Shown here piece after piece: positions 301 through 5,162 of a stretch of 35,924 bases of DNA. The translations under genes and the position numbers were made by a program. Position 1 is the stretch's first letter; each line of letters opens with the position of its first letter. The notes under the pieces were generated by a model that saw nothing but the letters and a program-made list of their open reading frames with translations, did not search any database and was not told where the DNA came from. Source of the DNA: Alphaproteobacteria bacterium (GTDB taxonomy: Bacteria; Pseudomonadota; Alphaproteobacteria; Micavibrionales; Micavibrionaceae); NCBI GenBank assembly GCA_024279035.1, contig JAJRSA010000029.1:1-35924 (forward strand). Reading direction: 5' to 3'.

Positions 301-2715
301 TTAGTTTCTCAAAGGTTTTCCATTGAGTAACATGTGCTCAATGCGTGCTTGTGTGCCTTCATTCCTGACAAGCTTCATAAACTCTTGGGCTTCGAGCTTT
401 AAAAGATCTTTTTCAGACAAAGGCTTTGTCCAATCGGCTTTGTCTCCTCCAGAGAGAACAGTTGCAACGGCTTGGGAGACAGGCACATCATAGCCTGTGG
501 CTTTCCCGCTTTGATGAAGATCACTGACAGCCAAATCAAGCGCAGCTTTTCCTGACGCTCCGGGAAGGCGAATATCTTCGATGGGCTCAGGCGCTTTATA
601 GTTTTTGGAGAGTTCTAGTGCTTTTTGTTTTGCATCATACAGTAAACGATCTCTGTTCATTGTAATACCATCACTGTCTGTGAGGTAACCTATTTCTTTG
701 GCTTCCTGCGCAGATTTGGCAACTTTGGCCAAGGCAATGGTTTCAAAGGCTTTACGGGTTGCGCCCATGGGTGTGGTTTTTGGAGAAAACCAGAGAGGCT
801 GTCCGTCCTGCGCTTTATTATAATTCGCGGCTTCTTCTTTCTGAGCACGGAGAATCATTTCCTTACACCCGCCCCATCCCGGGATTAAACCTACACCAAC
901 CTCAACAAGTCCTGTGTACGTCTCCGCATGGGCTTGTACATGATCAGAATGGAGCAAGATCTCACAGCCTCCTCCAAGCGCCATACCACTTGGCGCAGAG
1001 ACAACAGGGAAGGGCGCATATTTCAACGCCATGTACGCTTGTTGTCCCCCTGTGACAAGGGATTCAATCTGAGGCCAGAGAGCTATATTCATGGCAAATA
1101 TGGCAAGACCAAGATTTGCGCCTGCACAAAAATGAGACCCTTCATTGTATATAACAAGCGCTTTATAGTCCTTTGTTCCGTCTCCAATTAATTTTATGGT
1201 TTTGGCATAGAGATCAAAGACGGTCTCATCAATCGCGTTCATTTTTCCTGTAAATTCGAAACACAACACCCCATCTCCAATATCCCAAAGCGTTGCACTG
1301 GCTGTTTTAGCCACAGGGTCGCTGGCACGCTTAATATCTCTGAGAAGAAGAACGCCTTTAGGGTTTTTAAGATCGTGATACTGTCCATCTGTTCCAAAAT
1401 ACTGGAGCTGACCGTCTTCAACTGTGTAGAATGATCCCTCTCCAACAGCCTCAAGAAGAGGTGGGATAGATAATCCTTCTTCTTTCAATTTCTCTGCAAA
1501 CCATGAAGCCCCCAACGCATCGATCATCTCAAAAGGGCCTTTTTTCCAGTTGTAGCCCAAGCGCATGGCTTCGTCGACTTCTGCAATTGTCCCTGCAATT
1601 TCAGGCACAAGAGAGGCGGCATAATGGAGCGTACGGCTGAGCACATCCCATGCGTACGCTCCGCCTTGATCTTCGGTTGTGACCACAGATTTTAAACCCT
1701 TGCGCCCTGCTTCAACAGATTTGAGCTTGGGTTTTATAGATTTGGTATAATTATTCTTATCAAAAGACTCTGCCTTAAGGGGGAAGGATTGCTTCTCTCG
1801 TACACCTTTAGGGGCATCGGGGTTTAAACGGTAAAACCCTCCGTTCCCTTTCCGTCCTGTGTATCCCGCCTCAATCATTTTATGAATGAAGGGATGGTCT
1901 ATAAAGGATTCACGATAGAGATCTTTTTTGGGAAGGGTATCTAAAAGAGATTTTGAGAGATGAGGCATGAGATCAATTCCAATGAGATCTAAAAGCCCAA
2001 AGACTCCCGTCTTCGGGATTCCACATGGTTTTCCCATGATAAGATCAGCGACTTCAACAGAGATGTTTTTCTCTACAGCTACATTAACCGCCGTCATTAA
2101 CCAAAACACACCCAAACGATTAGCAATAAAACCAGGGGTATCGTGGCACTCCACAACCCCTTTCCCAAGCTTAACATCACAAAAGTCTCGGATGGTTTTC
2201 ACGGCTGTCTTATTGGTATTCTTAGCACTCACAAGCTCCATCAAGCGCATATAGCGTGGCGGATTAAAGAAATGCGTGATCACAAAATGCTCTTGAAACT
2301 CTTTATCAAAAGGCTTCACCAAAATATTAAGCGGAATGGTCGATGTATTAGACGAAATAATAGCCCCTTTTTTGCGGTGCTTTTCAATTTTTTCATAGGT
2401 GGCGTGTTTGATCTTAAGATCTTCCAACACCACTTCAACAATCCAGTCACACGCCTTGAGAAGATTAAGATCATCTTCCATATTCCCCGTCGTAATGCGC
2501 TTGGCCGCTTTTTTGGTCATGAAGGGCGCAGGGTCAGCTTTCAGCATTTTCTGCACTGCGCCTTCCGCAAACGCATTCCTATTCCCTCCAAAATCCTCCA
2601 GCTTAGGAGGCACAATATCCAGTAACACAACATCCGTCCCAGAATTAGCAATCTGCGCCGCAATCCCACTCCCCATTAATCCTGCGCCAATAACGGCCAC
2701 TTTATTTATTGTCAT
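301..2715 (-). CDS. Bifunctional 3-hydroxyacyl-CoA dehydrogenase / enoyl-CoA hydratase (FadN-like)
   Basis: This 804-residue enzyme would hydrate trans-2-enoyl-CoA and oxidise the 3-hydroxyacyl-CoA with NAD+, two successive steps of fatty-acid beta-oxidation in the cytoplasm. The dehydrogenase comes first: NAD motif GAGLMG at residues 10-15, catalytic His148 in HFFNPP with Glu160 nearby, and DTPGFIANR at 192-200. The hydratase domain starts near 480, with an oxyanion-hole region CAGANL and two glutamates, Glu585 (GGGCE) and Glu605 (VEVG), spaced 20 apart as in crotonase Glu144/Glu164. This order, dehydrogenase then hydratase, is that of Bacillus FadN and the reverse of E. coli FadB/FadJ. The thiolase of the same pathway lies upstream on the same strand, but about 1.3 kb of small genes and repeat elements separates them. 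The start at 2715 leads directly into the NAD-binding strand. Confidence 0.93.
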   Translation of the reverse strand: MTINKVAVIGAGLMGSGIAAQIANSGTDVVLLDIVPPKLEDFGGNRNAFAEGAVQKMLKADPAPFMTKKAAKRITTGNMEDDLNLLKACDWIVEVVLEDLKIKHATYEKIEKHRKKGAIISSNTSTIPLNILVKPFDKEFQEHFVITHFFNPPRYMRLMELVSAKNTNKTAVKTIRDFCDVKLGKGVVECHDTPGFIANRLGVFWLMTAVNVAVEKNISVEVADLIMGKPCGIPKTGVFGLLDLIGIDLMPHLSKSLLDTLPKKDLYRESFIDHPFIHKMIEAGYTGRKGNGGFYRLNPDAPKGVREKQSFPLKAESFDKNNYTKSIKPKLKSVEAGRKGLKSVVTTEDQGGAYAWDVLSRTLHYAASLVPEIAGTIAEVDEAMRLGYNWKKGPFEMIDALGASWFAEKLKEEGLSIPPLLEAVGEGSFYTVEDGQLQYFGTDGQYHDLKNPKGVLLLRDIKRASDPVAKTASATLWDIGDGVLCFEFTGKMNAIDETVFDLYAKTIKLIGDGTKDYKALVIYNEGSHFCAGANLGLAIFAMNIALWPQIESLVTGGQQAYMALKYAPFPVVSAPSGMALGGGCEILLHSDHVQAHAETYTGLVEVGVGLIPGWGGCKEMILRAQKEEAANYNKAQDGQPLWFSPKTTPMGATRKAFETIALAKVAKSAQEAKEIGYLTDSDGITMNRDRLLYDAKQKALELSKNYKAPEPIEDIRLPGASGKAALDLAVSDLHQSGKATGYDVPVSQAVATVLSGGDKADWTKPLSEKDLLKLEAQEFMKLVRNEGTQARIEHMLLNGKPLRN

Positions 2716-2739
2716 TTACTTTGTTTCCTTTTATTTTTT

Positions 2740-2890
2740 ACCACAGTGAACACAGAAGAAGCACAGGGGCGCTCATAGCACACATCTAAAGACAGTATAG
2801 TCAAAACACTTTTTTTATACAGTGATTTAACAAATAATGTAGAACATCAGGCTGGGAACGCCCCTGTGCTTCTTCTGTGTTCACTGTGGT
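2740..2890. repeat. Short inverted-repeat element, deleted (MITE-like) copy
   Basis: A 151-base segment bounded by perfect 32-base inverted repeats (2740-2771 and 2859-2890; the arm begins ACCACAGTGAACACAG). Sequence just inside both ends matches the inner ends of the larger element at 3271-3732 (GCTCA-AGCACA on the left, ATCA-GCTGGGAA on the right), while the GxxExxY coding centre is absent. It therefore reads as an internally deleted derivative of that element. It lies immediately upstream of the hydroxyacyl-CoA dehydrogenase start at 2715 and could form a long hairpin in any transcript from further upstream. Confidence 0.8.
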
Positions 2891-2895
2891 GAAAG

Positions 2896-3255
2896 TCATA
2901 AACTCCATTTCTTTCCTTCAATCCCTAAATCTTCTCGAATGAACTTTTTAAGACTCTCAAGTGCCGCCCCTCTTTCAGAAGAGCCTGATTCTGTATCAAT
3001 AACATTCTGAATGGATTTTCTTACTTTGGCGTTTGAAATTAATTCACATCTCATCTGCCAATAAGCAAAGTTTTTGGCTGCTTCTAAGGAATTCTGAACC
3101 GCTACTTTATGATAAGCCTCCAATAAGCCAACATATGCTTCTTTTTTCTCCTGAAATGACAGAATTTTTTTATTATGATATATATTGAAAAATGCTTGAA
3201 AAACGGCAGTTATCAATGCCCCGAGACCAAAGGCAGATAAAAATTCTATTGTCAT
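2896..3255 (-). CDS. Small membrane-anchored protein of unknown function
   Basis: A 119-residue protein with one hydrophobic N-terminal segment (about residues 5-25) followed by a charged, helical cytoplasmic-type region rich in Lys, Glu and Ala. I recognise no family. The start at 3255 is supported by a strong ribosome-binding site (AAGGAGGAG about six bases upstream), which abuts the inverted repeat of the neighbouring element. The last residues (about EGKKWSL) are encoded by sequence that is also found flanking the other element copy at 3733-3775, so the native C-terminus may have been replaced by element-associated sequence. The gene lies between two copies of the same repeat element. Confidence 0.6.
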   Translation of the reverse strand: MTIEFLSAFGLGALITAVFQAFFNIYHNKKILSFQEKKEAYVGLLEAYHKVAVQNSLEAAKNFAYWQMRCELISNAKVRKSIQNVIDTESGSSERGAALESLKKFIREDLGIEGKKWSL

Positions 3256-3270
3256 GTGTTCTCCTCCTTC

Positions 3271-3732
3271 ACCACAGTGAACACAGAAGAAGCACAGGGG
3301 CGCTCACAGCACAAATCTATGTATACCATTTTTTACCAATTTTTCGTTAAAATTAATCAAATACCCTAATCTCGATCCGTGTATTTTCATATAAGTAAGC
3401 AACTGTGCTCTATGCACTGGTTGAAGCGCCACACATGCTTTTAACTCCAAAATAATTTCATTCTCTACCAAAAGATCAACTTTATAGGCGTTTTCTATTT
3501 TTAAGGCCTCAAAGGTAAGGGGCAATGATTTTTGTCGTTCAACGTTCAATTTCTGATTATGAATCAAATCATATTCAAGACATTCTTCATATGTATTTTC
3601 TAAAAGCCCTGGACCAAATGTTTGATGAATCTTAAAAATAGATTTTCTAATCTTCGCAGAGATTACATTCAAATAATAACAGGGATCATCAAGCTGGGAA
3701 CGCCCCTGTGCTTCCCCTGTGTTCACTGTGGT
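3271..3732. mobile_element. Inverted-repeat-bounded element carrying a GxxExxY gene
   Basis: The ends 3271-3302 and 3701-3732 are 32-base inverted repeats with two mismatches. They are the same sequence as the arms of the short element at 2740-2890. The interior is almost entirely the GxxExxY open frame, whose stop codon (3304-3306) lies one base inside the left arm. Similar ACCACAG/GAACACAG-type repeats are known next to GxxExxY genes in many bacteria, which fits a small mobile or mobilisable unit. No transposase is encoded, so movement would need help from elsewhere. Confidence 0.65.
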
Positions 3733-3741
3733 GAGAATCAT
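3304..3741 (-). CDS. GxxExxY family protein (PD-(D/E)XK-nuclease-like)
   Basis: The 145-residue product carries GLLENTY, the GxxExxY signature (TIGR04256), followed by a Glu-x-Lys segment (EIILELKA) typical of the PD-(D/E)XK nuclease-like fold of this family, and the C-terminal block LLTYMKIHGSRLGYLINF. The family's cellular role is not established. From the ATG at 3741, preceded by AAAGGA about nine bases upstream, the first 20 or so residues are a translation of the element's terminal repeat (TTVNTGEAQGRS). The conserved domain itself starts near residue 24, where a TTG (3672) would give the usual family N-terminus, so the start is uncertain. Confidence 0.85.
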   Translation of the reverse strand: MILTTVNTGEAQGRSQLDDPCYYLNVISAKIRKSIFKIHQTFGPGLLENTYEECLEYDLIHNQKLNVERQKSLPLTFEALKIENAYKVDLLVENEIILELKACVALQPVHRAQLLTYMKIHGSRLGYLINFNEKLVKNGIHRFVL

Positions 3742-3765
3742 AAACTCAATTCCTTTCCTTCAATT

Positions 3766-4026
3766 TTAAAAATCTTTTTTGTAGAATTTATCAGTCCAAA
3801 CCCTTTTCATCACAGGTAATGTCAATGTTGAAATCAAATATGCCCCAGAAGGCACAATGGCATGAAGCCAATTATGAGGGACATCTAGAATTAATAGATC
3901 AATCGCCACAATTAAATATGTTCCCCCCGCAATCATCAAGCGCCTACTCCAAGAGTTTTCCCATGCCTTGTCCGCTTCGACACGCTTATTACGCTTGATA
4001 ATGGTCTCTATTTCAGCCTGTTTCAT
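3766..4026 (-). CDS. Small two-helix membrane protein
   Basis: An 86-residue protein with a basic N-terminal stretch and two hydrophobic segments (about residues 31-46 and 55-72). No known family recognised. The start is taken at 4026, where ATG shares one base with the thiolase stop codon (TAATG), implying translational coupling; the longer frame back to 4074 would lie inside the thiolase gene and is less likely. Coupling to the thiolase suggests joint transcription, not a shared function. The stop lies just beyond the flank of the GxxExxY element. Confidence 0.65.
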   Translation of the reverse strand: MKQAEIETIIKRNKRVEADKAWENSWSRRLMIAGGTYLIVAIDLLILDVPHNWLHAIVPSGAYLISTLTLPVMKRVWTDKFYKKDF

Positions 4027-5162
4027 TAAATCTTCTCCAGCACAGTCGCGATCCCTTGCCCGCCACCAATGCACATCGTGGCCAATCCGAGTTTTTTGTT
4101 TTCGCGTTTCATGAGGCTGGCGAGCTTTCCTGTGATCCGTGCGCCTGATGTTCCGAGAGGGTGACCGAGGGCAATGGCGCCTCCGTCAATGTTTACTTTT
4201 TTCTCGTCAATGCCGAGCTCTTTGAAGACGGAAAGCGATTGAGCGGCGAAGGCTTCATTTAATTCGAAGAGATCAATGTCTTTGATGTCTACACCCGCAC
4301 GCTCTAAGGCTTTTTTGGAGGCAGGCACGGGGCCTATGCCCATGATTTCTGCTCCACAGCCTGCCACAGCCACAGATTTAATGCGGGCGAGTTTTGGAAG
4401 GCCATGCTTATCTGCATAGGCCTCAGAGGCCACAATCACTGCGGCTGATCCATCTGTGAGAGGAGAGGAGGTGGCCGCTGTCACACTCCCTTTTGTATCA
4501 AAGGCAGGGTTCAGAGTTGCTAACTTCTCTAAGCTTGAGTCTCCACGGATTGTACCATCTTCCAAGATATCTCCAATCGGCACAATTTCATCTTTGAAAA
4601 GCCCTGTTTGCGCTGCATGGGCTGCTTTTTGGTGAGAGGAGAGCGCAAATTTATCTTGATCTTCTCGTTTTATTTCATATGTCTGTGCCAAATTTTCTGC
4701 AGTGATCCCCATGCTGATATAGGCGGCAGGGTAACTTTCAATCAAGGATGGGTTGGGCATTGGGTTAAAGCCCCCCATCGGAATGCGGGTCATAGACTCA
4801 ACGCCTGCGGCGACAAACACCTCTCCAGCCCCCATTTGAATAGCCCCTGTTGCTATATGAATACTGGTCATCGACGAACCACAAAAGCGATTGACTGTGG
4901 CGCCTGCCACGGACACGGGCAAACCTATAATTTGAGCCACAATTTTGGCGAGGTTAAAGCCTTGCTCGGCCTCTGGAAAGGCACAGCCCATTAAAATATC
5001 TTCAATATCCTCTGGCTTCACGCCTGTCTCATCAATAAGGGCTTTAATGACGGTGGCGGCCATGTTATCGGGACGGATTGTGGCAAGCGCTCCTTTATTT
5101 GCAAAATGCATGGGGGATCTTTTGAATCCACAAAGTACAGTAGGGATAGCGAGTGTATGCAT
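4026..5162 (-). CDS. fadA: Acetyl-CoA acyltransferase (thiolase)
   Basis: This 378-residue enzyme would cleave 3-ketoacyl-CoA with CoA to acetyl-CoA and a shortened acyl-CoA, the last step of beta-oxidation. Thiolase landmarks are complete: nucleophile Cys94 in NRFCGSS, the NEAFAAQ block, His334 in GGAIALGHPLGTSGAR and the second cysteine Cys364 in CIGGGQG. The protein is slightly shorter than typical thiolases (about 390). It is the probable partner of the bifunctional hydratase/dehydrogenase at 301-2715 on the same strand. The start at 5162 has GGAG about ten bases upstream. A biosynthetic acetoacetyl-CoA thiolase is possible, but the neighbouring pathway enzyme favours degradation. Confidence 0.93.
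   Translation of the reverse strand: MHTLAIPTVLCGFKRSPMHFANKGALATIRPDNMAATVIKALIDETGVKPEDIEDILMGCAFPEAEQGFNLAKIVAQIIGLPVSVAGATVNRFCGSSMTSIHIATGAIQMGAGEVFVAAGVESMTRIPMGGFNPMPNPSLIESYPAAYISMGITAENLAQTYEIKREDQDKFALSSHQKAAHAAQTGLFKDEIVPIGDILEDGTIRGDSSLEKLATLNPAFDTKGSVTAATSSPLTDGSAAVIVASEAYADKHGLPKLARIKSVAVAGCGAEIMGIGPVPASKKALERAGVDIKDIDLFELNEAFAAQSLSVFKELGIDEKKVNIDGGAIALGHPLGTSGARITGKLASLMKRENKKLGLATMCIGGGQGIATVLEKI

Follow-up and report, generated by a model that had tools for sequence, protein, structure and literature searches.

In the RAYT/REP systems, the closest described parallels to the locus analyzed here, the gene lies between two inverted repeats and the repeats and protein coevolve, as set out in the accessible parts of one report (PMC2817692). 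According to the same report and the available portion of a second one, the presence of the gene tracks the abundance of the cognate repeat, inverted doublets of the repeat are dispersed, and each genome contains few, distinct genes (PMC2817692, PMC3116915). The rayt genes are described in the accessible text as rapidly evolving (PMC2817692).

The DNA analyzed here (the window, a stretch of 35,924 nucleotides) contains a gene of the GxxExxY family that resembles these systems in several respects. GxxExxY genes lie between inverted cognate repeats (54 of 77 genes, so not every member), appear to coevolve with them, are accompanied by dispersed inverted doublets, and occur as few, distinct genes per genome. 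As with RAYT, the presence of the gene tracks repeat abundance, a link that is weak inside family f29 and that the window's own repeat flavour, which has no dispersed copies, does not show. Unlike a RAYT, the GxxExxY protein is a PD-(D/E)XK nuclease (PF13366/TIGR04256) and not a Y1 HUH transposase, its gene is under purifying selection, and each of its arms is a run of three direct units rather than a REP palindrome. We propose, with a probability of about 0.6, that GxxExxY and the ACCAC-type repeats together make up a two-part system working like RAYT/REPIN.

Two inverted-repeat units in the window

An earlier note on this DNA had placed 32-base inverted repeats around positions 3271-3732, which encode GxxExxY, and around 2740-2890, which have no coding center. 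Both units are present, far above chance, and are called elements B (3268-3734) and A (2737-2893), respectively. The top inverted-repeat score in the region was 37, whereas none of 60 two-base-block shuffles exceeded 18. The arms of element A are 44 nt long, 91% complementary, and 71 nt apart, and those of element B are 42 nt long, 90% complementary, and 382 nt apart. PF13366 and TIGR04256 both match the open reading frame of element B, and element A is without a gene, as the note had read them. The features of the region are as follows.

301-2715, minus strand: fadB-like gene (3-hydroxyacyl-CoA dehydrogenase/enoyl-CoA hydratase), the downstream operon gene
About 2736-2779, plus strand: element A left arm, with the 32-base core at 2740-2771
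2780-2850, no strand: element A center, gene-free, with ∼10-13 bp at each end resembling element B
About 2851-2894, minus strand: element A right arm
2896-3255, minus strand: 119-aa ORF between elements A and B
About 3268-3310, plus strand: element B left arm, 3' of the GxxExxY gene and overlapping its last codons
3304-3741, minus strand: GxxExxY gene, PD-(D/E)XK nuclease of 145 aa, first codons within an arm
3693-3734, minus strand: element B right arm, 5' of the GxxExxY gene
3735-3764, minus strand: copied 3' tail of ORF 2896-3255, adjoining element B, a mark of segmental duplication
3766-4026, minus strand: orf102, 86 aa from ATG, with a longer GTG-start frame at 3766-4074
4026-5162, minus strand: thiolase gene, the upstream operon gene

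The 119-aa ORF had no Pfam, NCBIfam, or PADLOC match and one weak PHROG match, and the GTG-start frame of orf102 had no Pfam match. A search of the window with Rfam found no family, and that of five further loci found a tRNA only.

The inner ends of the two units, which the earlier note had reported to match, do so for ∼10-13 bp past the arms. The match does not extend to the remainder of the 71-nt center of element A, which is not alignable to element B (17 of the first 30 nt and 15 of the last 30 nt agree), and with only ∼10-13 bp of common inner sequence per side, A may or may not be a simple deletion of B. The two elements are also alike outside one arm, where 28 of 32 bases agree between 2891-2922 and 3733-3764, the stretch at A being the 3' tail of ORF 2896-3255 (ending IEGKKWSL, then stop). 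Because this likeness continues for ∼30 bp beyond one arm, A and B are better seen as copies from a segmental duplication than as two clean transposition events, and from these alignments the pair looks to have arisen at least partly by a small segmental duplication. A longer segmental duplication, which the note had named as a finding that would speak against its own reading, is thus in part what the locus seems to contain.

Comparison with related genomes was informative about the history of the block. In one congener (G002), orf102 follows the thiolase gene and ends in a stop that overlaps the start of fadB; in another (G001), fadB directly follows the thiolase gene; and a relative of orf102 is present in the thiolase loci of 7 of 29 relatives. 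In the window species, ∼1.05 kb made up of the ORF-tail copy, element B, the 119-aa ORF, and element A separates orf102 from fadB, and the gene order of G002 and G001, which lacks this block, identifies it as an insertion. The site comparison suggested in the note therefore revealed where the block is absent; base-exact ends could not be read because of the divergence from G001 and G002. The search with the arm, likewise suggested there, found no further copy of the window flavour in the 1.82-Mb genome and none in the two congeners, so that the note's other ground for rejecting its reading, a lack of further arm copies and of empty sites, also holds in part. Elements A and B represent a degenerate, private flavour, probably spread locally by segmental duplication. 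At another locus (L023, G253:C274), a truncated GxxExxY copy and a right arm lie just upstream of a full gene, an arrangement resembling the A/B duplication.

The GxxExxY protein and the arms around its gene

The window protein matches PF13366 (E 1e-36, 126.2 bits, cut-off 22) and TIGR04256 (E 1e-37, 128.8 bits, curated cut-off 35). PF13366 was its sole Pfam match, and a Y1 (HUH) transposase domain was not found in it. Residues G45, E48, Y51, D89, E99, K101, Q113, and Y117 (window numbering) are invariant in the 59-sequence structure alignment, which leaves out L112, L126, L130, L102, L139, L143, L146, L149, and L154, and at least 143 of 148 GxxExxY genes retain the catalytic and motif residues. 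The dN/dS values for the six closest gene pairs (0.02-0.25) show that the gene is under purifying selection. Internal stops in 48 of the 148 genes were set aside as a probable artefact of match ends merged past the start codon.

The AlphaFold model of the window protein has a pLDDT of 93.3 (mean 61 for the first ten residues, which are partly arm-encoded), and its best structural matches are PD-(D/E)XK nucleases. The top match, and the only one above Z 8, was 4ic1 (SSO0001; Z 9.5, rmsd 4.4, 100 residues aligned), which we take to be a Cas4; 4r5q gave Z 6.3, and the best Foldseek E value was 0.006. The PADLOC Cas4 profile gave weak matches (E 0.0007-0.008) to two of the three GxxExxY proteins scanned. 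Sequence searches of solved structures yielded no match for the single protein and one weak, unrelated match for the profile. In its fold and motif order (D, ExK, and QxxxY), GxxExxY is like the Cas4/RecB-family nucleases; it differs from them in its size of ∼120-145 aa and in having a dispersed arm repeat as its partner.

The arms are not peculiar to the window. Of 299 genomes sampled from the phylum, 55 have TIGR04256, and a scan of named genomes gave at least 80 GxxExxY loci, taken as the best by query similarity with flanks not used for the choice. By their record titles, these loci belong to Proteobacteria, Planctomycetota, Verrucomicrobiota, Bacteroidota, Acidobacteria, Chloroflexota, Cyanobacteria, Chlamydiae, and others; viral contigs contributed only 3 GxxExxY loci. 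Among the 77 genes tested (80 named loci minus 3 with short flanks), 54 had an inverted repeat scoring at least 15 between their 400-bp flanks. Among the controls, this score was reached by 8 of 1208 windows taken from the same loci and by 23 of 2832 other stop-to-stop frames, and several of these control matches were themselves copies of the motif without a gene. For direct repeats, a score of at least 15 was found in the flanks of 13 of the 77 genes. In the larger set of 148 distinct genes (160 minus 12 duplicates), arm pairs were scored for 142, with 6 genes left out for short flanks, and 63 of these had no arm pair scoring at least 15, a result that counts against the two-part model.

Each arm consists of three direct CRCNNAN units, 8-11 bp apart and pointing inwards, with AC preceding the first unit in 139 of 187 called arms. 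Inward unit triples were found on the 5' side of 84 of the 148 genes, on the 3' side of 103, and on both sides of 69, whereas the corresponding numbers for triples in the wrong orientation were 19, 23, and 4. The two arms of a gene have identical spacing in 66 of 69 cases (shuffled mean 14, maximum 26 in 10,000 shuffles), and the seventh and last base of the unit is identical in both arms in all 69.

The flavour of the arms follows the protein. The division between genes whose unit ends in G (98) and those whose unit ends in T, A, or C (20) requires one change on the protein tree, compared with a mean of 18.9 and a minimum of 15 in 200 shuffles; being a single evolutionary change, it has the weight of one event. 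Inside the G clade, the tree requires 30 changes for spacing (shuffled mean 55.9, minimum 47), 38 for unit positions 4-5 (mean 53.6, minimum 47), and 18 for unit position 2 (mean 29.5, minimum 22), in shuffles that leave relatedness in and on a poorly resolved protein tree with 73 of its 145 inner branches open. The dispersed copies behave in the same way: for 54 copies in six relatives, the nearest flavour was that of the genome's own gene in 42.5, compared with a mean of 9.0 and a maximum of 38.5 for the other 719 assignments. The six, all with known arms, were drawn from 11 relatives positive for gene and repeat, and copies beside genes were excluded. All 3 relatives that carry a clade-II gene have repeats of the T flavour, as do 2 of the 34 that lack such a gene (p = 0.0013, with clade and flavour sorted by eye). 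Based on these comparisons, repeat and protein appear to coevolve, as described for RAYT. One relative (G302) has T-flavour repeats even though its three genes look to be of clade I, an observation that counts against the two-part model.

Dispersed repeats and a second nuclease family

A strict arm pattern (ACCACVVAK N1-3 CACVVAK N1-3 CRCVVAK) had 909 matches, arms beside genes included, in 77 of 299 genomes, with up to 114 in one genome; the reversed control pattern had 26 matches in 11 genomes (summed by hand). At least three matches were present in 34 of 55 gene-positive and 18 of 244 gene-negative genomes (Fisher 1e-17), and among 37 relatives any match was present in 11 of 13 gene-positive and 3 of 24 gene-negative ones. 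Several results count against the two-part model. In f29, the one large and well-sampled family, the link is weaker, with at least five matches in 28 of 43 gene-positive and 12 of 31 gene-negative genomes (p = 0.03). Fifteen of the 55 gene-positive genomes have no strict match, including all 7 genomes of the window genome's class other than itself, in a search whose pattern requires ACCAC and with arms in the matchless genomes of this class that partly differ from it (for example, L077 and L079). In G158 and G310, 87 and 15 repeats, respectively, were found with no GxxExxY gene detected, which may reflect gene loss or an assembly gap.

Many of the dispersed arms are organized as inverted pairs, and such gene-less pairs are common. 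Neighboring arms less than 250 bp apart were in +- orientation in 50 cases, -+ in 10, and on the same strand in 13. In 49 of the 50 +- pairs, the two arms are of equal length (shuffling expects 22%), and arm identity is 0.87 within pairs versus 0.78 between pairs. The outer consensus of the pairs is TT[TG][AC]ACCRC, and no target duplication beyond chance was found at the +- pairs (1 of 50 at k=4, 2 of 50 at k=3). When two sister species (G027 and G019) were compared over a collinear ∼180 kb at ∼80-92% identity, 2 arm pairs were present only in G027, 2 only in G019, and 1 was common to both. The stretch also has two single arms, one of them identical between the species and the other interrupted in G019. 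Two gaps are occupied in both species, by elements that differ in flavour between them (G027:C1 at about 246856 and 307631; G019:C25), which may mark a hot spot or replacement. Base-exact empty sites were not obtained in the G027/G019 comparison, which counts against the two-part model.

The window genome has two more GxxExxY genes, both in what we read from the ORFs as the ATP synthase operon (L010, G000:C34:66000-71500). The one between atpA and atpG has arms of the form ACCACGAAG-ACACCAAG-TCACGAAG, and the one between atpG and atpD adjoins ACCACGGATGA-type arms and a gene-less inverted pair. Each of the three genes in this genome has another arm flavour, and their proteins are 26-41% identical, so they are not recent copies of one another; their neighborhoods read as metabolic operons. 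At up to one mismatch, the genome contains 24 T-flavour arms, 18 of them in nine inverted pairs, five of which have a loop of 19-31 nt. At three sites (G000:C15:66555-66700, C20:7276-7435, and C33:199-358), a different palindromic repeat, also dispersed, lies within the long loops of ACCAC pairs, and the two repeat families are thus nested.

The same genome contains four small GIY-YIG genes (L340-L343) at the following positions.

G000:C15:37839-38063: small GIY-YIG gene
G000:C15:41528-41737: small GIY-YIG gene
G000:C2:29527-29751: small GIY-YIG gene, the match containing two TGA
G000:C2:31835-32056: small GIY-YIG gene

Each of these genes has its own variant of a dispersed GTCATCC-type repeat, inverted, on both sides (GTCATCCTGAACTTG..., GTCATCGCCTGAA..., GTCATTCCTGCGCAGG..., and GTCATCCCCGCGGAGG...). 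The inverted-repeat scores were 28, 25, 13, and 28, and the 99% point of control windows was 13.9, so one score is not above it. A fifth GIY-YIG match sits in a 643-aa frame and is not stand-alone. Two of the GIY-YIG-linked repeat types also occur inside long ACCAC-pair loops. These data suggest that the small GIY-YIG genes and their repeats are, in this one genome, a second case of nucleases paired with repeats in the same manner.

Explanations for the nuclease-repeat pairing

The earlier note had proposed a small mobilisable unit and its non-autonomous derivative. The gene indeed sits in a unit with defined inverted ends, the family of these ends can be traced across phyla, and gene-less pairs exist; it is the A/B pair itself that does not fit, looking instead like a segmental duplication. 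In its conventional form, with gene and arms transposing together and the gene-less pairs being MITEs cut and pasted by GxxExxY or another transposase, this explanation would account for the terminal inverted repeats, the gene-less derivatives, the presence or absence of pairs in sister species, and the insertion into conserved operons. Gene-less pairs are indeed like the MITEs of IS elements in being short and having inverted ends. We nonetheless consider a conventional mobile element unlikely, given that the three genes of the window genome differ in flavour and are not recent copies, that at many orthologous loci the gene is kept at the same place across genera, and that a target duplication at k=4 was seen at 1 of 50 pairs; unlike IS-element MITEs, the gene-bearing unit has no transposase and its ends consist of tandem units. 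The mobilisable unit may be better read as a nuclease plus its cognate repeats, by analogy with RAYT/REPIN. About equally improbable is that the repeats serve regulation or self-recognition as sites bound by the nuclease (operators, or marks protecting or tagging the chromosome in defence or uptake) and are copied by other means. The operator-like architecture of tandem units, the covariation of arm and protein, and the weak Cas4 profile matches are consistent with such sites, which would not by themselves explain the mostly inverted, arm-matched gene-less pairs or their turnover between sister species.

Two other explanations are far less probable. If the arms paired in the transcript and the gene were cut from a polycistronic mRNA in the manner of an intervening sequence cleaved by RNase III, the location of arms in operons and the long stems (predicted RNA folding energy of -86.9 kcal/mol for element A) would be expected, and so would an excess of G-U among mismatches in stems under selection as RNA. 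Across 79 arm pairs, mismatches in the sense strand were G-U in 70 cases and A-C in 69 (p = 1.0); the lack of a G-U excess indicates that, unlike in an RNase III-cut intervening sequence, RNA pairing is not what is conserved, and gene-less pairs are common. Least probable of all is that a RAYT or another Y1 transposase moves the repeats as REPs, with GxxExxY as a bystander. Their inverted doublets resemble REPINs as presented in the accessible text of PMC3116915, but of 37 relatives only 7 have a Y1 match, and of the 14 that are repeat-positive only 4 do, with short matches (46, 77, and 44 residues) in three of the four; none of the 7 matches had a unit triple in its 400-bp flanks (three had one flank shortened by a contig end, one almost wholly). 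A RAYT as the agent was set aside, with no Y1 domain found in 10 of the 14 repeat-positive relatives.

The two-part system of GxxExxY and ACCAC-type repeats thus remains our preferred explanation, and the results suggest that a plain nuclease, not a transposase, spreads or maintains a widespread repeat family. We infer that the nuclease binds, cuts, or moves the repeats and that cutting drives their dispersal. In the mechanism that we propose, a stand-alone PD-(D/E)XK nuclease with a Cas4-like fold would be kept at few loci per genome with two inverted arms around it, and would recognize, on DNA, its own flavour of unit and spacing. The dispersing form would be an inverted arm pair with a short loop. 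The nuclease would cut within or next to the paired arms, perhaps folded into a hairpin or cruciform, after which repair might place a copy of the hairpin at an AT-rich intergenic site elsewhere or make the arms match again. More tentatively, stand-alone nucleases of at least two unrelated kinds (GxxExxY and small GIY-YIG) may drive a broad class of genome-repeat systems in bacteria. Both kinds occur in this genome, with inverted repeats of their own flavour beside each gene, and for GxxExxY at least these repeats are also dispersed as pairs.

Literature searches on GxxExxY and PF13366 found neither a repeat partner nor a function described for the family, and a link between GxxExxY and repeats was not found described in searches whose coverage excluded most subscription journals. 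In their accessible parts, papers on multicopy sequences of Geobacter describe dispersed repeats and do not mention a gene-repeat pairing (PMC2700814, PMC2996986), and the available text of the RepRanger paper contains no word starting with "nuclease" or "RAYT" (PMC12306157).

In many bacterial phyla, GxxExxY genes lie between ACCAC-type repeats, and this link gives the protein a hypothesis for its function, the repeats a candidate agent, and both a testable specificity code in the last base of the unit and the unit spacing. If the two-part model is true, the RAYT/REPIN principle would hold for a different enzyme fold as well. If the broader class is real as well, nucleases would have made much of the unexplained dispersed repeats of bacteria, such as those of the ACCACAGAG, ACCACGGATG, and GTCATCCTGAAC types.
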